DNA of 33,431 nt from assembly GCA_016211995.1 (NCBI GenBank), contig JACRHU010000047.1, positions 1 to 33,431 on the forward strand, read 5' to 3'. Source of the stretch: Candidatus Pacearchaeota archaeon. GTDB lineage: Archaea; Nanobdellota; Nanobdellia; Pacearchaeales; DTIR01. Both the position numbers and the translations under genes were made by a program. This document shows, one piece after another, positions 10,823 through 30,732 of this stretch. The first letter of the stretch is position 1. Each line of letters starts with the position of its first letter. The notes under the pieces were generated by a model that did not search any database, was not told where the DNA came from, and was given only the letters and a program-made list of their open reading frames with translations.

Positions 10823-11359
10823 ATGATAAACAAAAGAAAACTTGGGCAGATATGGGTTGAAACAGTTATATACACTCTAATCGGATTAGCTGTTATCGGC
10901 CTTCTTCTTGCTATTGCAAGGCCAAAAATAGCTCAAACCCAGGATGATTTTGTAATAAAGCAGACAATTAGTGCAATGAATGAACTTGACAAGAAAGTAA
11001 GTGAAGTTAAACAAGCAGTTGGCAATAGAAGGATTGTGGAATTCCAGCTTTCTAGAGGAACATTAACAATTGATTCTACAACAGAAACTATTTCTTGGGT
11101 GCTTACTGGAAGCAATTTTATGTTTAGCGAGCCTGGCACGCAAGCATCAATAGGCAGAATAAATGCACTAACAAAAAAAGTCTCAGATAAGTACGATGTT
11201 ACTTTAACAATGGATTACAATGGAATTATTTCAATGACTACTAATAATATAGATAATAAACTTGTAACTTTACAAACAGCAAAAACTCCTTATAACATAC
11301 TCATTGAAAATGTTGGTGAAGATAATGGAAAAGTAAAAATAGATATTTCTATTTCTTAA
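10823..11359 (+). CDS. Pilin-like protein
   Basis: MINKRKLGQIWVETVIYTLIGLAVIGLLLAIARPKI. Confidence 0.75.
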   Translation: MINKRKLGQIWVETVIYTLIGLAVIGLLLAIARPKIAQTQDDFVIKQTISAMNELDKKVSEVKQAVGNRRIVEFQLSRGTLTIDSTTETISWVLTGSNFMFSEPGTQASIGRINALTKKVSDKYDVTLTMDYNGIISMTTNNIDNKLVTLQTAKTPYNILIENVGEDNGKVKIDISIS

Positions 11360-11462
11360 TTTTTAAAAAGACAATGAAAAAATAAAAGTAGATACTACTA
11401 TTTCTTAATTTTTAAAAAGACAATGAAAAAATAAAAGTAGATACTACTATTTCTTAATTTTT
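11351..11462 (+). repeat. 49-bp tandem repeat (~2.3 units) derived from the 3' end of CDS 10823-11359
   Basis: atttcttaatttttaaaaagacaatgaaaaaataaaagtagatactact twice, plus a partial unit; encodes DNEKIKVDTTIS* twice versus gene tail DNGKVKIDISIS*. Confidence 0.85.
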
Positions 11463-11494
11463 CAACCAAGAAATAAAGAATCTTTTTTGATAAT

Positions 11495-11547
11495 AAGCTT
11501 TGCACATATTTTAGGTGAGATTATAGTCTCATTTATGTGCAAAGCTT
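11495..11547. repeat. Long inverted repeat/hairpin, family GCTTTGCACATA
   Basis: Perfect 14-bp arms aagctttgcacata (11495-11508)/tatgtgcaaagctt (11534-11547); same arms recur at 17325-17382. Confidence 0.8.
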
Positions 11548-11574: not shown

Positions 11575-14500
11575 ATGAAAAAGGGAGTGGTAGAAGAGGT
11601 GGAAAAGATAGAAATTAATCTCTCTCCAGTTGTTCCTTCTCTTCCTAGATTTAAAGATAAAACACAAATTGATGTGAGGTATATGCTTATATCTCCTTAT
11701 GTTTCTGCTCACATATACTGGAACAAAGAGCTTTCAGAAGTTGCTTATGAAATCGAAGAGCCAATGCTAACAGAACTAGAAAAGCAGCAGCTGGAAAAAT
11801 TGGAAAAAGGGATGCGCGAGCTAATCAATGTCAACTTACTTGTAGAAAAAAATGTAGACGCTATTTTAGAGTACATTAACAAAACTGCAAAATTACTCGC
11901 TTCAGAGCTTGGTTTGAAAATGACAAAAGATACATATAAAAAATTGTTCTATTATATCTTCAGAGATTTTGTTGGGTTAAATGAAATTGAGCCATTCTTA
12001 AGAGATTATTTTATAGAGGATATAGAGTGTAACGGGGTTGACACTCCTATCTATATAATACATAGGGTATACAGAAATCTCCGTACAAATATTGCTTTCC
12101 ATAATATAGATAATCTAGCAAGCTTTGTTGAAAAGCTTGCTCAAAGATGTGGTAGATACATCAGTTACGCTACTCCATTATTAGATGGCACTCTTCCAGA
12201 CGGTTCTAGAGTAAATGCTACATATACAGCAGATATTACATCAAGAGGTCCGACTTTTTGTTTCAAAGATGGTTATGTTCAGCTAAGTGATGGACGAATA
12301 AAAAATATAAAAGAATTATTTGAAGAGAGCAAAAAAAATTTTGGATTTAGAATCGAGAATGGAAATGAGATTGTTAAAGTTGCCAATATTAATTGTTGCG
12401 GTGTGGGGGAGAGAGATTTACAGCAAAAAGATTCTAGAATTGAGTCTATTATCAAACTAAAAGCACCTAAAAAACTTGTTAAAATTCATTTTGAAGATGG
12501 CGGAGAAATAGAAGTAACCTTAAATCATTTGTTTCATGTTGCTGGCAATTCGTTAGATCTTATTGAGGCAAGGAATCTTAAAAAAGATATGCTGATTCCG
12601 ATGCCAAGAAAATTGGAAGTTTCAGGATACAGGCAAAAAATAGATGTCTATTCAATAATAAAAGATTTTTCTTATCTTAAAAAAATATGTATAATCAATA
12701 CCCCCGCGGTAAAAAATATTGTAACTAGCGAGATGAAATCAGGAGGGAGAAATTTCAGGCAGGTTTTATCTCAGAAATATGGCGTTGAAGATTCTTATTT
12801 CTATGGAATAGTACATAAAGGAAATTCAATCTCTTTTACTATTCTGGATGGGATATGTAAACAACAAAATCTTAATTTCAATGACCTTGAAGAAATTTCT
12901 GTTAATGTTTATGGTGGAGGAACAAAAAATAAAACAAAATCAGTCAAAGTTCCAAGAGAAATTGATGAAGAGTTGGCTTATCTTACCGGTGCGTTGATAA
13001 GCGATGGCCATTTATCAAAAGAATATATAGACTTTTCGTGCTATGAGGATGGATTCAAAAAATCTGTAAAAGAAAAACTCTTAAACAAATTCGGCAGATT
13101 TGATTCTTATTGCAATGATAATAGAATTTATGTGTGTAATTTATTTGTCCCTTTCTTTTTCAATAAGCTTTTTGGCATTCCTATAGGCAAAAAATCTCCT
13201 ATCGTCAAAATCCCCGAGCTGATCTTCAAATCAGACAATAGAGTTATAGCGTCATTTATAAGGGGGTTATTTGATGGTGATGCCACTTGCAGGGCTGGTT
13301 TGAGCTACAAAACATACTCTAAATCTCTTGCAGAAGGTTTGACTTATCTTCTTGCAAGATTAGGAATATACTCTTATTTAAGAAAAACTGAAAAAGAATA
13401 TAGGGTTAATATACCTTCACCATACTATAAAAGATACAGAGATATGATAGGTTTTGATAGCATAAGCAAGACGAGTGACTTGAAAAGATTAGTAGAAAAG
13501 CAAGTAGAACATAAAACATTTATTAGACATGATAGAATCCCTGGTGCGCCGGTTATGGCTATTATAAACAGATTGGGCATAAAAAAGAAAGAGTTACTTA
13601 AAAATTGTTGTTTTAGTTATAACAGATTCCTTTATATGTCATTTTCAAAGGATTTTGTTCAAAAATTATTCGAGGAGATTACTAAGGATGAGAATGTAGG
13701 ACTTGTTAAGAAAGAATTAGAATATATAGATTGGCTACTAAACTCTAAACAAGAGTTTGTTAAAATTAGCAATATAGAGATAATCGATAATAAGGAACAA
13801 GTATATGATATAGAACTAGAACCTTGTAAATTTTTCATAGCAGGCAATAAACCGATGAATATATTTGATACAATAAGAAAATTTACAAAAATTCCATGGA
13901 CTCCTATTCAGCTAATTAGTTTAAACACATTAAGCCCTGAAATGCTCGCATATTTCTGGATTCTTATCCAATATAAATGTAATATACTAATCACAGGAGG
14001 AACAGCTTCAGGAAAAACTACTTTGCTTAATGCATTGGCATTCTTTATTCCGCCAGAAGCAAGAGTTGTCAGCATTGAAGATACAAGGGAGTTGAATTTA
14101 CCAAGAGAAAACTGGCTGCCGAATGTTGCAAGAACAGGCATAGGTGTTGGAGGTATAGGAGAGGTTGATTTATTTAGCCTTCTTAAAAATTCTTTCAGGC
14201 AGAATCCAAACTATGTTATTGTAGGAGAGGTCAGGGGAAAAGAGGCTTTTGTTTTATTTCAGGGAATGGCATCAGGACATCCATCAATCAGCACAATTCA
14301 TGCAGATTCTGTTGATACAGTTATCAAAAGACTTGAAACTCCACCAATTGAGTTATCACCAACATTAGTCAATACATTAGATGTTGTAGGAGTAATGACA
14401 CATGCTATAGTAAACAAACAAGAAACCAGAAGATTGAGAGAAGTAATTGAAGTAGTTAATGTCACACCAGAAGGAATTGCTATAACCAACACTCCATTTA

Positions 14501-14736
14501 TATGGAATGCAGCAGATGACAGATTCTATTTCAAAAAAGACAGCAGAGTACTTGAAAAAATAATGAATAGATATGGACTTTCAAAAGAAGAATTGTTGCG
14601 TGAATTTGATATAAGAACAAGAATACTTTTTAAGATGTTTCAGAATAAGATATTTGGTTTTGATGAAGTCCAGAGAATGATTAATGAATATTATAAAAAT
14701 CCTAAAGACGTTCTTACAAAATTAGGCTTAGTATAA
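11575..14736 (+). CDS. Type II/IV secretion (pilus assembly) ATPase, GspE/TadA/VirB11-like, intein-containing
   Basis: Walker A ITGGTASGKTTLLNAL, Walker B-type NYVIVGEVRGKE, HADS motif; extein reads TSRGPTF/TIRKFTKIPW when the insert is removed. Confidence 0.95.
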   Translation: MKKGVVEEVEKIEINLSPVVPSLPRFKDKTQIDVRYMLISPYVSAHIYWNKELSEVAYEIEEPMLTELEKQQLEKLEKGMRELINVNLLVEKNVDAILEYINKTAKLLASELGLKMTKDTYKKLFYYIFRDFVGLNEIEPFLRDYFIEDIECNGVDTPIYIIHRVYRNLRTNIAFHNIDNLASFVEKLAQRCGRYISYATPLLDGTLPDGSRVNATYTADITSRGPTFCFKDGYVQLSDGRIKNIKELFEESKKNFGFRIENGNEIVKVANINCCGVGERDLQQKDSRIESIIKLKAPKKLVKIHFEDGGEIEVTLNHLFHVAGNSLDLIEARNLKKDMLIPMPRKLEVSGYRQKIDVYSIIKDFSYLKKICIINTPAVKNIVTSEMKSGGRNFRQVLSQKYGVEDSYFYGIVHKGNSISFTILDGICKQQNLNFNDLEEISVNVYGGGTKNKTKSVKVPREIDEELAYLTGALISDGHLSKEYIDFSCYEDGFKKSVKEKLLNKFGRFDSYCNDNRIYVCNLFVPFFFNKLFGIPIGKKSPIVKIPELIFKSDNRVIASFIRGLFDGDATCRAGLSYKTYSKSLAEGLTYLLARLGIYSYLRKTEKEYRVNIPSPYYKRYRDMIGFDSISKTSDLKRLVEKQVEHKTFIRHDRIPGAPVMAIINRLGIKKKELLKNCCFSYNRFLYMSFSKDFVQKLFEEITKDENVGLVKKELEYIDWLLNSKQEFVKISNIEIIDNKEQVYDIELEPCKFFIAGNKPMNIFDTIRKFTKIPWTPIQLISLNTLSPEMLAYFWILIQYKCNILITGGTASGKTTLLNALAFFIPPEARVVSIEDTRELNLPRENWLPNVARTGIGVGGIGEVDLFSLLKNSFRQNPNYVIVGEVRGKEAFVLFQGMASGHPSISTIHADSVDTVIKRLETPPIELSPTLVNTLDVVGVMTHAIVNKQETRRLREVIEVVNVTPEGIAITNTPFIWNAADDRFYFKKDSRVLEKIMNRYGLSKEELLREFDIRTRILFKMFQNKIFGFDEVQRMINEYYKNPKDVLTKLGLV
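12259..13869 (+). mobile_element. Intein with LAGLIDADG homing endonuclease domain (537 aa)
   Basis: Starts CFKDGYVQLSDGRIK; block B KIHFEDGGEIEVTLNHLFHV; LAGLIDADG-like motifs LAYLTGALISDGHL and IASFIRGLFDGDATC; ends VYDIELEPCKFFIAGNKPMNIFD before TIRKF. Confidence 0.9.
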
Positions 14737-14758: not shown

Positions 14759-14932
14759 ATGATATCAAAAGAGAAAGCGCAATTTCTCGCCCAGCTTATT
14801 CAGAGTATGCAAGAAGCTGCTTATGAGCTAGATAAGGCTATAAGAGAGACAGATTTTGCTAAAATTAAACGTGTTAAAGATTTTATTCTTGCTTTACAAG
14901 TTAAAATAACAGAGGTTACAAGAGAAAAATGA
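14759..14932 (+). CDS. Small 57-aa protein between the ATPase and membrane protein genes (absent from ORF track)
   Basis: MISKEKAQFLAQLIQSMQEAAYELDKAIRETDFAKIKRVKDFILALQVKITEVTREK*; stop overlaps next start (ATGA). Confidence 0.7.
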   Translation: MISKEKAQFLAQLIQSMQEAAYELDKAIRETDFAKIKRVKDFILALQVKITEVTREK

Positions 14933-16233
14933 CAATAGAATCTTTAAGAACTAATCTAATGCAGGAAAAACAATTAGTAGATAATATTCTTGTATTATAT
15001 GAGCAGTTTGAAAATGCAGCAGGAACAGAAAAAAATTTCTTCGCGAATGCGATTATTTCTTTGCTTAATCAGGTCGATATTATAAATAATTCTGTTCCAA
15101 GAATTTTAGATGAGATTAAATCAGCTAAGCAGCTTCCAATAGTTATCCAGAGAGAAGCAGAGATACAAATAGCAATTATCGGCCAGATTACACTCGATAA
15201 AAAAGATAAAAAAAAGTATCTTAAAGAGCTTGAGATAAGCAAAAGAGCAATTAATGAGCTGAAAAAAAAGACAAAAGAACCGAAAACCAGGGAAATAGAG
15301 GTTTTTAAAAAACCAAATCAGCTTGCTTCAGCTTCTTCTAAATTATTTGGAAGAATGTCTTTCAATCTTGTTGAAAAGGGCTCTTTTAAATTTATTAATA
15401 CCCAACTAAGAAAAGCAAATATGCCCTATCTTTTGTCTACTTATCTTTCACTGATGTTTTTTTTCACGCTTGTGGTATTTATTGTTTCAATATTGGCTGC
15501 TGTTTTATTCACTTTTTTTAAAGTTGGATATTTAGCAGGGCAATTTTTTCCTTCTTTTTCTTTAAATCTAGAAAATATAGGTCAGAGACTTTTGACTAAT
15601 ATAATGTATTCACTCTCATTGCCAATACTCACTTTCGCAGCATTTCTCTTGTATCCTTCAGGGGAAGCATCTTCTATAAAAACAAGAATAGACAATGAAC
15701 TACCCTTCGCGGTCTTGCATATGTCATCAATTGCTGGAAGTGGTGTTGAACCAAGCAGAATTTTTAGAATAATTGCCATGAGTAAAGAATACCCCGCAAT
15801 TGGAAAAGAGATTAGGAAAATTGTTAATCAAATAAATTTGTATGGCTATGACCTCATAACAGCTTTACGAAACACAGCAAAATCAACTTCTAATGATAGC
15901 TTAGCCGCATTGCTAAATGGACTTGCAACAAACATTTCTTCAGGAGGAACTTTGAAAGACTATCTAGACAAAAAAGCTTCAGATACAATACTTGATTACA
16001 AACTTTCAAGAAAAAGATACAGTAATATGGCTGAAACTTCTATGGATATTTACATTGGTGTTTTAATTGCAGCACCTTTAATTTTCATGATTCTTTTGAT
16101 AATGATTAATGCAATCGGAATAGCATTTGTAGGATTAAATCTAATAACTATCTCACTTTTAATTGTCGGAGGCACTATCCTAATAAATATAGGTTTCCTG
16201 ATTTTCCTTAAATTCAGGCAACCACCACAATAA
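14929..16233 (+). CDS. Type II secretion/pilus assembly membrane protein (TadC/PilC/FlaJ-like)
   Basis: Follows the ATPase; multiple TM segments; ELPFAVLHMSSIAGSGVEPSRIFRIIA motif. Confidence 0.85.
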   Translation: MTIESLRTNLMQEKQLVDNILVLYEQFENAAGTEKNFFANAIISLLNQVDIINNSVPRILDEIKSAKQLPIVIQREAEIQIAIIGQITLDKKDKKKYLKELEISKRAINELKKKTKEPKTREIEVFKKPNQLASASSKLFGRMSFNLVEKGSFKFINTQLRKANMPYLLSTYLSLMFFFTLVVFIVSILAAVLFTFFKVGYLAGQFFPSFSLNLENIGQRLLTNIMYSLSLPILTFAAFLLYPSGEASSIKTRIDNELPFAVLHMSSIAGSGVEPSRIFRIIAMSKEYPAIGKEIRKIVNQINLYGYDLITALRNTAKSTSNDSLAALLNGLATNISSGGTLKDYLDKKASDTILDYKLSRKRYSNMAETSMDIYIGVLIAAPLIFMILLIMINAIGIAFVGLNLITISLLIVGGTILINIGFLIFLKFRQPPQ

Positions 16234-16279: not shown

Positions 16280-17146
16280 ATGGAATTGCAAAAAAGCCAT
16301 TATGTAGGAATGGGATTTGCTATAGCAATCCTGCTAGTAGACTTGTTTGTTTTTGGGCTTAAAAGCAGGCTTGTATTTTTTGTTGCAGGCATAGCAGTGC
16401 TTGTTGGTGTTTTACCATTTTTAATAACAGTGATGATAGAAACAGGTAGGGCAAGAGAAAAAGAAATGATGTTCATAGAATTTACTAGAGATTTGGTAGA
16501 GTCTGTTAAAACTGGAACACCAATCAGCAAGGGAATCTTGCATGCAAAAGGCAAGGATTATGGAAGCTTAACACCACATATTTCTAAGCTTGTTAATCAG
16601 GTAGCTCTAGGAATTCCTGTTAAACAAGCCTTAAGAACATTCTCAAAAGATGTTAATAATCCAGTTATTGGAAGGTCAGTCACACTGATTGGAGAAGCAG
16701 AGGAAGCTGGCGGTTTAATAGATACTATTCTTGAATCTGTTGCAAAATCTGTAAGCGAGATAGAAGACATAAAAAAAGAACAGAAAGCTGCTGTGTATAA
16801 TCTTGTTGTTCAGGGCTATATCATCTTTTTTATTTTTATTATAATTATGCTTGTAACTGAAATTAAAATAATTCCAATGACTTTGAATTTGCCAGGAACA
16901 CAGGGTGGCATTGATATTCTTGGCGTACAGGCAGGCACTGGTGGAAGATTAACAGCAGAGCAGCTATCACTTCCATTTCTTATTTTATTGATAGTTCAAG
17001 GTCTTTTTGCTGGATTGGTCATAGGAAAACTTTCAGAAGGTTCAATAAAATCAGGAATAAAACATTCTGTTATACTTATATTCCTAGCATATCTTGTAAC
17101 AACTGGTGTACGAGTTATATTAGTCAAACCACCTGTGCCTACATAG
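16280..17146 (+). CDS. Type II secretion/pilus assembly membrane protein (TadC-like), second copy
   Basis: EFTRDLVESVKTGTPISKGILHAKGKDYGSLTPHISKLVNQVALGIPVKQAL...; GEAEEAGGLIDTILESVA. Confidence 0.8.
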   Translation: MELQKSHYVGMGFAIAILLVDLFVFGLKSRLVFFVAGIAVLVGVLPFLITVMIETGRAREKEMMFIEFTRDLVESVKTGTPISKGILHAKGKDYGSLTPHISKLVNQVALGIPVKQALRTFSKDVNNPVIGRSVTLIGEAEEAGGLIDTILESVAKSVSEIEDIKKEQKAAVYNLVVQGYIIFFIFIIIMLVTEIKIIPMTLNLPGTQGGIDILGVQAGTGGRLTAEQLSLPFLILLIVQGLFAGLVIGKLSEGSIKSGIKHSVILIFLAYLVTTGVRVILVKPPVPT

Positions 17147-17153
17147 CATCAAT

Positions 17154-17285
17154 AGTAACTTTTAGATTATGCTCTTAGTCAAACTTACTGTAACCACTTA
17201 ACTGATGACTAGCAACTTTTAAATTATACTCCTAGCCAAGCCTACTGTAACCACTTAACTGATGACTAGCAACTTTTAAATATAC
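17154..17285 (+). repeat. 57-bp tandem repeat (2.3 units) derived from the 3' end of CDS 16280-17146
   Basis: agtaactttt...ctgatgact (17154-17210) and agcaactttt...ctgatgact (17211-17267), plus partial third unit; encode MLLVKLTVTT* and ILLAKPTVTT* versus gene tail VILVKPPVPT*. Confidence 0.85.
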
Positions 17286-17324
17286 TTTTTTCTTTCTATA
17301 GTAATAAAAAGAGGTCTAAAATGG

Positions 17325-17382
17325 GCTTTGCACATAATCAACATAAAATTAATAGTCACTTACTCACATATATGTGCAAAGC
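17325..17382. repeat. Inverted repeat, second copy of the GCTTTGCACATA family
   Basis: Perfect 12-bp arms gctttgcacata (17325-17336)/tatgtgcaaagc (17371-17382). Confidence 0.75.
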
Positions 17383-19597: not shown

Positions 19598-22240
19598 ATG
19601 GTAGAAATAAAAAAAATTTCAAAATATGAATGGTTGATTCCAAAAGAAGGAGCAATGAATGTTCCTGTTGTAATTTTTGCAAGCGAGAAGCTTCTTGAAA
19701 AAATGAAGGAAGATATAACTTTACAGCAAGCTATGAATGTTGCCCAACTTCCAGGAATTGTTGAAAAAAGTATTGTGCTTCCTGACGCCCACCAAGGATA
19801 TGGAATGAGTATTGGGGGAGTTGCTGCCTTTGATTTAAATTCTGGAGTAATCAGCCCCGGTTGTGTAGGTTATGATATCGACTGCTCGGTCAGGCTTTTA
19901 TCTACAAATCTAAACAATAAAGATATTAAAGGTAAAGAGGAGCAAATTTCTTCTCAATTATTTAGGGATGTTCCTTCAGGGGTAGGTGAAAAAGGAAGAA
20001 TTAGGCTTACAAAAGAAGAGTTAGATGAAGTTCTAAAAAATGGGGCTCAATGGGCTGTGAAAAAAGGTTACGGAGAAAAAGAAGATTATGTGCATACTGA
20101 AGAAGAAGGAAAAATGAAAGAGGCAAATCCTGAATATGTTAGTGAAAGGGCCAAAATAAGAGGCATGCCACAATTAGGAAGTTTAGGGGCTGGAAATCAC
20201 TTCTTAGAAGTTCAGGAAGTGGATGAGATTTATGACAAGGAAATAGCCAGGAAATTTGGGATTAAAGAGAAAGGACAAGTAACAATTATGATTCATTGTG
20301 GGAGCAGGGGATTAGGACATCAAGTAGCTTCTGATTACATAAAATTAATGGAAGATGAATATGGTTTTGAAAATTTGCCAGACAGAGAATTAATTAATGC
20401 TCCTATTTCAAGCGAGTTAGGAAAGAAATATTTTGGGGCTATGGCTGCTGCAGTTAATTTTGCATTTGCAAATAAACAGCTTATAACTCATTGGGTACGA
20501 GAAGCTATGAAAAGAATTTTCCCTAATTTTAAGGCAGAGGTTATATATGAAGTTTGCCATAACATAGCAAAGTTTGAAACACATAACATAAATGGAGAAG
20601 AAAAGAAAGTTCTTATAATGAGAAAGGGAGCTACTAGGTCTTTTGGTCCAGGAAGAAAAGAACTGCCAAAGGATTATATAGATATTGGGCAACCAGTATT
20701 GATACCTGGAAGCATGGGAACATCAAGCTACATTTTAGTAGGAACGAAAAAAGCAGAAGAATTAACTTTTGGGAGCACGTGTTTTACTGGTGATACTAAA
20801 ATAATAACAGATAAAGGAATAATAACCTTAAAAGAAATTAATGAAAGATTTCAAAATGGAGAAAAATTTCTTGCTCTATCAATAAATGAGTCTAATTTAG
20901 AATTAGAATGGAAACCTATAATGAATACATTCAAAAGAAAATCAGATGTCGTAGAAATTTCTATTTCTCAGACAAACCGTTCAAACTTAAGCAAACTAAG
21001 AACTACAAGAGACCATAATTTCTTGACATTAAAAAATTTTAATTTGATTGGTGAGGAAATTGAAAAAATTATTTCAAAAGAAAAAATGTTGATTGCAGTT
21101 GATTCTTTAAAAAGTGATATTCAAAAGAGTATAAATCCCAATTTAGCATATCTTGTTGGAGCTTTAGTTACAGATGGGTATGTTTATTTGGATAAGAGAA
21201 GAGGAAAGATAACATTTACCCAAAAGAAAGTCGCCAAAAAACTCGATTTTATTTATCACGTACAAAATTGTTTTAGAGAGTGTTTTAATACAGAATTGAG
21301 AGAGTATAAAACAAAATTTGGGGGGGGAACTATAAGAGGCAGGCAAATTTATGGGGAGGGAACAGATTTTATTTGTTGCCAGAAAAATCCAGCAATTGAA
21401 ATTTTAAATATAACTTCTAATCTTCCTAAGTGGGTTATGGAGCTTGATAAAGAAGCAAATTTTAACTTTTTAGCTGGAATTATTGACGGTGATGGTGCTT
21501 GGAATCCTAATAGACAAGTTTTAGATATCTTTACAGGGGATGAAAATGTTGCTGAAGCAATACTTCTATCATGTTTGAAAATGGGGATTTTACCATACAT
21601 CTCAAAACAAAGGGGCTCTTGTTTTGTAATTCAAATATCAGAAAAAGAAGATTTAATTTTTGGGTATACAAAGAGAGTTAAAGGAATTTTTAGAAAAAGG
21701 AAATACGGACAAAAATTATTTTCTGCAAAACAAATGTTTGAGGGTGTTGAAGTTAGATGGCCATTTTTACATAAAGCAATAAGAAATAATTTGATAAGTT
21801 ATGAGCAAATTCTAAAACATATTCATAAATATCCTGAAATTAAAAAAGAAGTTAAAAAGCTAATAGAGTCCCCTATTAGAATGTTAAGAGTTAAAAAATT
21901 AAAAGATGTTGGTATTAGTGAATTGTATAATATTGAGGTAGCAGACAATCATAATTATGTTGTTCTTACTGATATGTTTATGCCTATTTTTGTTAAAAAT
22001 TGTCATGGAGCAGGTAGAGTTATGAGTAGACATGAAGCCTTAAGACATCAAAGGGGGGAAGAAGTAAAATCTAATCTAAAAAAACTGGGAATAGAAGTAA
22101 AGTCTGGAAGCTGGAAAGGATTGGCAGAAGAGGCTCCTGAATCATATAAAGACATTGAAGAGGTAGTAAAAACAAGTCATGAGCTGGGTATAGGCCGATT
22201 AGTAGCAAAGGTTAAGCCATTAATTGTCATTAAGGGCTAG
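19598..22240 (+). CDS. rtcB: RtcB RNA ligase, intein-containing
   Basis: LPDAHQGYGMSIGGVAAFD, GYDIDCSVRLL, HCGSRGLGHQVASDY; extein FGST/CHGAGRVMSRHEALR; ends KPLIVIKG*. Confidence 0.97.
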   Translation: MVEIKKISKYEWLIPKEGAMNVPVVIFASEKLLEKMKEDITLQQAMNVAQLPGIVEKSIVLPDAHQGYGMSIGGVAAFDLNSGVISPGCVGYDIDCSVRLLSTNLNNKDIKGKEEQISSQLFRDVPSGVGEKGRIRLTKEELDEVLKNGAQWAVKKGYGEKEDYVHTEEEGKMKEANPEYVSERAKIRGMPQLGSLGAGNHFLEVQEVDEIYDKEIARKFGIKEKGQVTIMIHCGSRGLGHQVASDYIKLMEDEYGFENLPDRELINAPISSELGKKYFGAMAAAVNFAFANKQLITHWVREAMKRIFPNFKAEVIYEVCHNIAKFETHNINGEEKKVLIMRKGATRSFGPGRKELPKDYIDIGQPVLIPGSMGTSSYILVGTKKAEELTFGSTCFTGDTKIITDKGIITLKEINERFQNGEKFLALSINESNLELEWKPIMNTFKRKSDVVEISISQTNRSNLSKLRTTRDHNFLTLKNFNLIGEEIEKIISKEKMLIAVDSLKSDIQKSINPNLAYLVGALVTDGYVYLDKRRGKITFTQKKVAKKLDFIYHVQNCFRECFNTELREYKTKFGGGTIRGRQIYGEGTDFICCQKNPAIEILNITSNLPKWVMELDKEANFNFLAGIIDGDGAWNPNRQVLDIFTGDENVAEAILLSCLKMGILPYISKQRGSCFVIQISEKEDLIFGYTKRVKGIFRKRKYGQKLFSAKQMFEGVEVRWPFLHKAIRNNLISYEQILKHIHKYPEIKKEVKKLIESPIRMLRVKKLKDVGISELYNIEVADNHNYVVLTDMFMPIFVKNCHGAGRVMSRHEALRHQRGEEVKSNLKKLGIEVKSGSWKGLAEEAPESYKDIEEVVKTSHELGIGRLVAKVKPLIVIKG
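20780..22000 (+). mobile_element. Intein with LAGLIDADG homing endonuclease domain in RtcB (407 aa)
   Basis: Starts CFTGDTKIITDKGIITLKEI; LAYLVGALVTDGYV and FLAGIIDGDGAW motifs; ends YNIEVADNHNYVVLTDMFMPIFVKN before CHGAGR. Confidence 0.95.
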
Positions 22241-26200: not shown

Positions 26201-26837
26201 AGGTGCTTGTAAAGGTGCAGATAATACATATAACACAGCAGATGATTGTTGCCCTAGAGACTATAAATGTGATCCTGATCCAACAATCAATAAATGTATT
26301 CCACGAACAACAGAGTGCAGTGGCTGGACAGATGAAGCTACTTGTATAGCTAATGGCTGTTTCTGGAAAGATGGCATCTGCCAGCCTAGTTCAGTTATGT
26401 TATCATGCTCTGATTATTTAACTCAAGAGTTATGTGAGACAGATCCTTTAACACTTGGAAAAGAAGGAGGAGTTGGTTTAGGAACAGAAATCTGTGGAAC
26501 AACACAAGGAAATTATATTATAACTAGCTGTGCATGCAAGTGGGTAAACAATTTATGCCAATTGAATTATCTTTTACAAAAGGCAATTAATCCATATGAG
26601 CCACCAACAGCGGTATGTGACAAATATTTTTCATTGACTCCTTGTGTAGATGGAAAAAGAATAGAGAGCTGGATTGCTACAAGAGACCCAACAGCTTCAG
26701 AAGACCCATTATGTTCTGATGGATCCAAAGAGATTACTTGTGGATTTGCTTCATCAAAACTTCCTTTCTTTGGAACAATTAGCTTCATAATTGCTGTTGC
26801 ATTAATAGTTCTGTATTATTCTTTGAGAAGAAGATAA
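23295..26837 (+). CDS. Large surface protein with SLH-like and PKD-like regions and a C-terminal TM anchor
   Basis: N-terminal signal; SLH-like TRAVVAIFLHNAYDF.., LTRVELAVFIVRTAN; C-terminal GTISFIIAVALIVLYYSLRRR*. Confidence 0.8.
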   Translation: MVSKKAITFIFLSSLIISSVFLILISQNIAKAVLPTTEPGESFSFTIAADESWDDPRTTPAGQPFNLTLFTIDTPHNRDGISSTTNPGYPGIFAYTYNEGIFFNNKSQMTIIPSAWGYNTNTHGIYDLVYGASSGWYPDTRRSCTTSAPCTLDYLNPYPDSKHIIEMNVSCINRGFTLRIGSTNFEGRCPYTTNLSIISNINNITQMRGLDSSTGAYQNTAFFFINVTYRMNHTQPIVSDIQNGEVSLSDGKKSLGSVSSFLASKLTHGGNVINPSVSSSDEFVKLTIENVAGTPTVFACLDGDRNTVCDKDEQCPSAEYINIDDARNVPETDYSSPLYRKQVFFDICKDTDSAHPERNGYFNESWQLFAKNVTQGCVITSNRFLYYCPGPLLTRAVVAIFLHNAYDFKSLPNKFGSDYFDDILASGISNTMNRSIGFIWEKKVTLGCCAGAECSGGTGTLFYCPNNYLTRVELAVFIVRTANSTDSHRSDSVCSNRVVCFNDIPSSIQFTDMTLNGDPSCGTGSPPKVCYDPEFINSTRWIKWKGITTGCTATTFCPTVQASRGMVAKMLGSGLQYINIQQVIPSQGDLIWADMHIPPIYGIISAERNDSVQLIWKNMDPTFENNKIKFTINDFDTSTSNPDCTTSWGDKIFYTTATKLPDNTVQANITWRARTCFNPTERNPTNLNFSVQRVDSSLQPISSSIDSSSITINSPDNDASPTAVIKVPKYNFPLTIYGPTNLDGNIFNIEPPQTSVSVGFQSDSQDADDYLIEQWKIWNDSTADNPITGTGRQFSSTFSKYVSGQYWVNLTVTEDGASYNRNKKASALSLFYVNQTNANDPPFTWISNPKEGEEFEANPIWFNATYSWDDETPFINLNFSWLFDDGVKYSAKGFVGANLSKNFSSPGPHWAKLKVIDNNPIPLSSKASVNFLIKGCKLGDIYEFKNSCFSDRIHYCTSTLEIKNTMNDLGACKGADNTYNTADDCCPRDYKCDPDPTINKCIPRTTECSGWTDEATCIANGCFWKDGICQPSSVMLSCSDYLTQELCETDPLTLGKEGGVGLGTEICGTTQGNYIITSCACKWVNNLCQLNYLLQKAINPYEPPTAVCDKYFSLTPCVDGKRIESWIATRDPTASEDPLCSDGSKEITCGFASSKLPFFGTISFIIAVALIVLYYSLRRR

Positions 26838-26878
26838 TAGTAGTTCTATATTATTCTTTAAGGCAAAGAAGAAAATAA
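26837..26878 (+). repeat. Diverged duplicate of the C-terminal tail of CDS 23295-26837
   Basis: IVVLYYSLRQRRK* versus LIVLYYSLRRR*; differences in VLYYSLR are synonymous. Confidence 0.8.
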
Positions 26879-27137
26879 TACTTGGTGAAAATTCTAAATT
26901 ATGATAAGGCGAGTAGAACAAATAGATATTTTTATTAAGTATTAGCTTAAGTGATGGAATTTAGGTGATAGAGAAAATCAGGAAAGAGAAAGAAGATAAA
27001 TCAAGATAGGAGATCAGGATAGGAAGGAGAGATATTCTATCTACCTGTTATTTTTAATTTTCATTTTTATCCTGTTTTTTCCTCGAAATCTTTATAAATA
27101 TCATTTTTGTATTACTATAAAGATAAAAGGGGTTTGA

Positions 27138-30001: not shown

Positions 30002-30068
30002 ATTAAAACTTAAACAAAAGAAAGAGAGTAGAAATAGATAACCAAATAAAATTAAAACTTAAACAAAA
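30002..30068 (+). repeat. Short direct repeat attaaaacttaaacaaaa (two copies, 49 bp apart)
   Basis: 30002-30019 and 30051-30068. Confidence 0.6.
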
Positions 30069-30084: not shown

Positions 30085-30732
30085 ATGCAGATAAAAATAA
30101 TCCCGAATTTTTTTAAGAGAATTTTCGCTTCATTATTCAAGAAAAAGAAGCACATTCAGCTTGGTTTTTATGGACCTCCAAATGCAGGAAAAACCTCTCT
30201 TGCTAACAGAATATGCAAAGATTGGACAGGCGAAGAGCTAGGAACAGTTACAAAGATTCCTCATGAAACAAGAGAGATACAAATCAAAGAGAAAGTGGAT
30301 ATTAATTTTAAAGGAAGACAGCTGACTTTCAAGCTTGTAGACACACCAGGGATTGCTACAAAAATAGATTACGAAGAGTTTTTGAAATTCGGCCTAACAA
30401 AAAAAGAAGCTAAAGGTAGAGCAAAAGAGGCAACAAAAGGAGTCATTGAAGCAATTAAATGGCTTGATGACATGGATGCTATTATTGTTGTCTTGGACGC
30501 AACATTAAACCCATATAGCCAAGTTAATATAACTATAATCGGAAATATTGTTGCAAGAAGAATTCCTGTGCTTATAGTTGCTAATAAAATTGATTTGCAT
30601 AAAGCAGATACTAAGAAGATTGAGGCTGCTTTTCCAGAATACGAGGTAGTTGGAATAAGCGCAAAGTTAGGGAAGAATATGGAAGAATTTTACGAATCAC
30701 TTTTCAGGCTTTCAAAAAAGAGGAAAGGATAA
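30085..30732 (+). CDS. Era-like small GTPase (archaeal ArvA/OapA-like)
   Basis: G1 GPPNAGKTS, G3 VDTPGIA, G4 NKID; adjacent DUF2073 gene. Confidence 0.85.
   Translation: MQIKIIPNFFKRIFASLFKKKKHIQLGFYGPPNAGKTSLANRICKDWTGEELGTVTKIPHETREIQIKEKVDINFKGRQLTFKLVDTPGIATKIDYEEFLKFGLTKKEAKGRAKEATKGVIEAIKWLDDMDAIIVVLDATLNPYSQVNITIIGNIVARRIPVLIVANKIDLHKADTKKIEAAFPEYEVVGISAKLGKNMEEFYESLFRLSKKRKG

Follow-up and report, generated by a model that had tools for sequence, protein, structure and literature searches.

A stop-spanning tandem duplication behind an archaeal surface-protein gene and the genome-wide class of ~49-bp duplications to which it belongs

The end of a gene for a 1180-aa surface protein in the window (the whole stretch of DNA analysed, 33,431 nt) has been duplicated in tandem, and this duplication is one of a genome-wide class of short head-to-tail arrays that have a narrow unit length, are concentrated at gene 3′ ends, are rare in related genomes, and keep the reading frame where they lie inside genes. 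The lone echo is ordinary; the interest lies in the class of ~49-bp duplications, which is ~5-9x denser than in relatives, offers a view of how gene ends can be harmlessly rebuilt, and may be read as a record, left by nature in an uncultured and little-studied archaeal lineage, of an unusual error of replication or repair. It is quite probable that a lineage-specific, near-blunt process generates duplications of ~49 bp, the products of which survive where they are harmless, at gene ends.

The duplicated end of the 1180-aa gene

By direct reading, the gene tail is ATA (26805-26807) GTT CTG TAT TAT TCT TTG AGA AGA AGA TAA (26835-26837), and the echo is ATA (26837-26839) GTA GTT CTA TAT TAT TCT TTA AGG CAA AGA AGA AAA TAA (26876-26878). 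The echo copies the last ~32-35 nt of the tail: positions 26803-26837 and 26838-26872 were matched by a repeat finder over 35 nt at 77% identity without gaps, and the gapped score of the tail against the downstream DNA was 41, compared with 15.3 (sd 2.7) in 200 dinucleotide-preserving shuffles of the DNA 3′ of the gene, none of which scored as high (0/200; z 9.6). Chance is excluded as the source of the similarity. The echo that the initial annotation had described behind the stop codon is thus borne out, as is the exact end of the interval it had given (26787-26878); the start of that interval has to be moved, with homology beginning at ~26803, ~16 nt further downstream.

The motif TAATAG stands at 26803 and again at 26835, with TAATAC at 26876, and the copies run from TAATA to TAATA, spanning 32 and 41 nt, respectively (Table 1). 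The 9-nt difference in length may be expressed as three indels of 3 nt, although the A/G-rich part aligns ambiguously. Because both copies end in a homologous TAATA(G/C), the stop codon lies within the unit of two adjacent direct copies, and the arrangement is a tandem duplication spanning the 3′ end of the gene. The unit carries its own stop; therefore, the downstream copy was untranslated from birth, and only its source was translated. The initial annotation had read the echoed tail as once translated, which holds for its descent from a translated tail and is not supported for the downstream copy itself, given the stop within the unit, a -1 frame relative to the gene, the lack of a start codon, and relatives that are free of the echo.

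The VLYYSLR core differs at three sites (CTG/CTA, TTG/TTA, AGA/AGG), all synonymous, as previously noted from the sequence. When the real tail codons were used to simulate a neutral echo diverging from a gene under purifying selection, 36% of differences were synonymous, and three of three had p ~0.05; the core, which had been offered as the clearest sign of translation, is therefore weak evidence of it at this locus, although divergence pooled over the genome is coding-like (described below). A recent duplication blurred by sequencing errors, the counter-case named in the initial annotation, is not the pattern observed. Such post-stop echoes call for caution before they are taken for fossils of translation.

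Homologs of the 1180-aa protein were found in 7 of the 91 genomes searched (its own genome counted), the best of them in a genome of the same family (G001), with 42% over residues 744-1176 and an alignment reaching residue 1175 of 1180. The homologs with readable ends (G001, G069, G036, G084, and G059 examined) share the same kind of C-terminus, with one LPFF-type membrane segment and one basic tail; none ends in VVLYYSLRQRRK and none is followed by an echo, which therefore belongs to this genome or its close kin alone. No second genome from the same species or genus turned up. Searches for paralogs were likewise negative, in that a 37-aa tail query matched itself alone in the genome and a 117-nt DNA query returned no second real copy, and a paralog was rejected as the source of the echo. 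A scan of the genome contigs with the whole 1180-aa protein gave no match. Separately, residues ~360-580 of the protein resemble, by eye, cysteine-bearing S-layer-homology-type repeats (CP..TR..A motif), and stretches related to these putative repeats lie at G000:C7:6483-6872, C59:8817-9164, and C79:1458-1775.

Two further readings of the locus were weighed. If the protein had once held both copies in frame and a frameshift or a new stop in copy 1 had later shortened it, the echo would be the fossil of a longer protein; copy 2 is indeed open to its own stop, with its VLYYSLR core kept, one base out of frame. However, the stop motif stands at homologous positions in both copies, and the single membrane segment and basic tail of the five homologs also speak against such a history, which is highly improbable. 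Alternatively, the echo might function now by adding an alternative basic tail through -1 frameshifting or readthrough, and the -1 frame does stay open up to 26878, starting in the final codons of the gene. Read directly, the AGA AGA AGA TAA end has no recognised slippery heptamer, and stop-spanning periods across the genome represent every residue class modulo 3, such that frame is not kept, making present function exceedingly unlikely.

Table 1. Coordinates of the duplicated gene end, other arrays in the window, and MITE-like elements
Feature	Position	Strand	Description
Surface-protein ORF, 1180 aa	23295..26837	+	PKD-like; C-terminal membrane segment, basic tail (..CGFASSKLPFFGTISFIIAVALIVLYYSLRRR)
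Copy 1 of unit	26803..26834	+	Translated tail, from first TAATAG to just before stop TAA
Junction TAATAG	26835..26840	+	Stop TAA of gene (26835-26837) plus start of copy 2; direct reading
Copy 2 of unit	26838..26878	+	Untranslated, degenerate echo directly 3′ of stop; would read IVVLYYSLRQRRK-stop in -1 frame from 26837
TAATAC closing copy 2	26876..26881	+	Homologous to junction TAATAG; direct reading
Second tail echo	11317..11462	+	49-bp unit x3 across stop of pilin-like ORF 10823-11359
Third array	17153..17286	+	57-bp unit x2.4, directly 3′ of stop of FlaJ C-terminal-half ORF 16280-17146
Fourth array	30002..30068	+	Noncoding gap preceding ORF 30085-30732; period 49 bp, with 18 nt matching exactly
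MITE-like elements (positions include)	window 17325-17382, 11497-11545; L074:1804-1861; L060:14655-14709; L037:10124-10175
Array plus MITE-like element	window 11319-11545, 17153-17382; L059:2678-2821; L074:1804-1946; L037:10108-10185

Among the 29 window ORFs tested for tail echoes, only the pilin-like ORF had one as strong as that of the surface-protein gene. A diverged partial copy of the 57-bp unit of the third array seems to overlap the last codons of the ORF upstream of it. That ORF and its neighbour (14929-16233) match the C- and N-terminal halves, respectively, of a FlaJ/ArlJ-like membrane protein that is split here. A FlaJ-like protein of the window has 38-39% matches in metagenome-assembled archaea, one of them labelled Nanoarchaeota, and the window is therefore probably from a DPANN archaeon. 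In addition, RtcB (19598-22240) and a type II/IV secretion ATPase (11575-14736) of the window carry LAGLIDADG inteins.

A genome-wide class of ~49-bp duplications

Arrays were defined as ungapped tandem repeats with a period of 30-65 bp in noncoding or gene-border DNA, with genes called by a simple longest-ORF rule (at least 80 aa) under which some borders may be off. A sample of 450 kb out of the 925 kb of the genome, window included, was compared with 280 kb of G001 and 700 kb from other families of the order. The genome itself yielded 40 locus-private arrays (8.9 per 100 kb), compared with 5 in G001 (1.8 per 100 kb) and 7 in the other families (1.0 per 100 kb); with all periods counted, 58 arrays were observed in the genome's sample vs. 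~2 per shuffled copy of it. Unit length was narrowly distributed (median 48.5, IQR 43-50, 40 arrays), and the unit behind the 1180-aa gene (35 nt; 32 and 41 nt by its anchors) lies at the short edge of that distribution. A shared repeat family was rejected after an all-against-all blastn of the 40 arrays gave only short, AT-rich matches of 16-30 nt.

Arrays spanning stop codons numbered 22 for 463 genes in this genome and 3 for 1027 genes in the relatives (Fisher p 4e-9). Random placement in noncoding and border DNA predicted 12.2 (sd 2.7) of them, with none of 300 placements reaching 22, whereas start-spanning arrays numbered 10 against 13.6 (sd 2.9) expected from the same kind of placement. 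The stop-codon bias may in part reflect purifying selection on the coding copy, by which pairs stay recognisable for longer, and in part selection against arrays across start codons.

An origin of the arrays in assembly, with strain variants concatenated at contig joins, would suit a genome in 86 contigs, 78% complete, that resembles a draft metagenome bin, and a unit length close to the k-mer scale. Several properties of the arrays make it very unlikely. They avoid gene interiors, yet ~78% of random placements are fully coding; the repeats that do lie in coding interiors have a period divisible by 3 in 13 of 14 cases (10 of 40 in border or noncoding DNA), whereas strain-variant joins would break the frame; several arrays hold 3-4 near-identical copies; and relatives of the same order have few arrays. 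Additionally, most of the stop-spanning genes with a sampled homolog match it to, or near, their own C-terminus, and the duplications have therefore left those genes unbroken.

Divergence of the copies and a possible mechanism

Echo and gene were compared at the 21 stop-spanning loci where the echo has noncoding positions; these provide near-equal numbers of sites per codon position. The differences were distributed 20:7:28 over codon positions 1, 2, and 3, and 26 of the 55 were synonymous. A neutral-echo model predicted 28% at second positions (p ~0.005 with equal rates and 0.018 with the gene lineage twice as fast, both computed on 56 differences with our own substitution model), and a bootstrap over loci placed the second-position fraction at 0.05-0.20 vs. 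0.28 expected. At L057 4811-5485, all five differences were synonymous, and the echo likewise closes with a stop codon, TAG in place of TAA. These patterns hint at divergence of some copies at a time when both were coding. Within one genome this is impossible for a copy behind a stop, but it would be natural if alleles of two strains had recombined unequally.

Unequal recombination between diverged strains is thus the main rival explanation for the locus: copy 2 would be the once-translated tail of another allele, joined at a shared TAATA, and the copies would have differed in a coding-like fashion before they became neighbours. The three synonymous core substitutions and the length difference writable in 3-nt steps agree with it, as does the pooled divergence. 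It is nevertheless rather unlikely, since other arrays are near-identical and multi-copy or diverge nonsynonymously (five of six differences in the window 49-bp array at 11319-11462), echoes at L039 and L068 contain internal stops by direct reading, and the pooled test comprises 55 differences evaluated with our own model in the genome of one strain. A combined scheme, in which an active process with a ~49-bp ruler prefers gene 3′ ends (e.g., transcription termination sites) and strain recombination swaps tails, is distinctly unlikely; if true, recombination between strains at the arrays would give rise to C-terminal variation.

A separate case was seen at L023:696-1670 (-), where echo and gene have only a final YKLLKI-stop in common. 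By direct reading, the DNA before this echo is open as ALERAIDILEEYKLLKI-stop and gives the impression of a second gene tail, distinct from the first.

According to the preferred reading, a lineage-specific duplication process, the end of the 1180-aa gene, its stop codon included, would have been doubled by a tandem duplication of ~32-41 bp; the first copy would have remained the functional C-terminus, rendering the event harmless, and the second, untranslated copy would have been left to drift. The process would produce head-to-tail duplications, mostly of ~41-57 bp and with little or no microhomology, that survive mainly where nothing is damaged, above all across gene 3′ ends. The molecular step may be that breaks with nicks offset by ~49 nt are filled in and their ends then joined, which is likelier than slippage between direct repeats because the match run in two-copy arrays is close to the period (run minus period mostly -1 to +4). 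However, the TAATA anchors could represent a 5-nt microhomology, favouring slippage for this particular copy, and the avoidance of second positions is not predicted by a purely neutral echo. The ~49-bp ruler is putative, being proposed from sequence scars. Ku was not found in the genome (G000, 78% complete), and a reverse transcriptase was looked for as a special feature of the genome and not found. Loss of FEN1 was considered and rejected, with an XPG_I match at G000:C5:6890-7165 (E 3.5e-25).

Known systems and neighbouring elements

Yeast deficient in FEN1/rad27 accumulates short tandem duplications flanked by short direct repeats. The arrays described here are likewise short tandem duplications, but they show little excess matching beyond the period, apart from the TAATA at the 1180-aa locus, and FEN1 is present in the genome. 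Prokaryotic minisatellites (VNTRs) resemble them in that units some tens of bases long, particular to each locus, are repeated head to tail, mostly between genes; in contrast, the present arrays mostly consist of two diverged copies and are distinguished by their narrow unit length and the excess at stop codons.

The mycobacterial MIRUs are also short, intergenic repeats, and they too overlap gene ends at little cost to their neighbours, but they form one dispersed, apparently mobile family that inserts at start codons (PMC12548453), whereas the units here are locus-private, with no homology of that kind between loci by blastn and with more than twice as many stop-spanning as start-spanning arrays (22 vs. 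10). In mammalian cells, small tandem duplications arise from fill-in of complementary overhangs and near-blunt joining, as shown with Pol alpha-primase, CST, and NHEJ (PMC8355091). The present duplications are similarly short and in tandem, and their match runs would be compatible with fill-in, although the copies are old and their edges blurred; unlike the mammalian ones, they are known from the scar alone, in a genome where no Ku was found. No account of such arrays in DPANN archaea turned up in literature searches, an absence that is not thereby proven.

Palindromic, MITE-like elements, 49-58 bp long and bounded by inverted GCTTTGCACATAA ends, were also observed (14 paired copies in 450 kb), 9 of the 14 with flanking direct repeats of 8-11 bp (one mismatch allowed), and their end motif is nearly absent from the relatives. 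Five of the 40 arrays lie ≤120 bp from such an element, compared with 1.56 (sd 1.22) expected, and 8 of 300 random placements reach five; at L037, the "array" is the flanking repeat of the MITE-like element itself.
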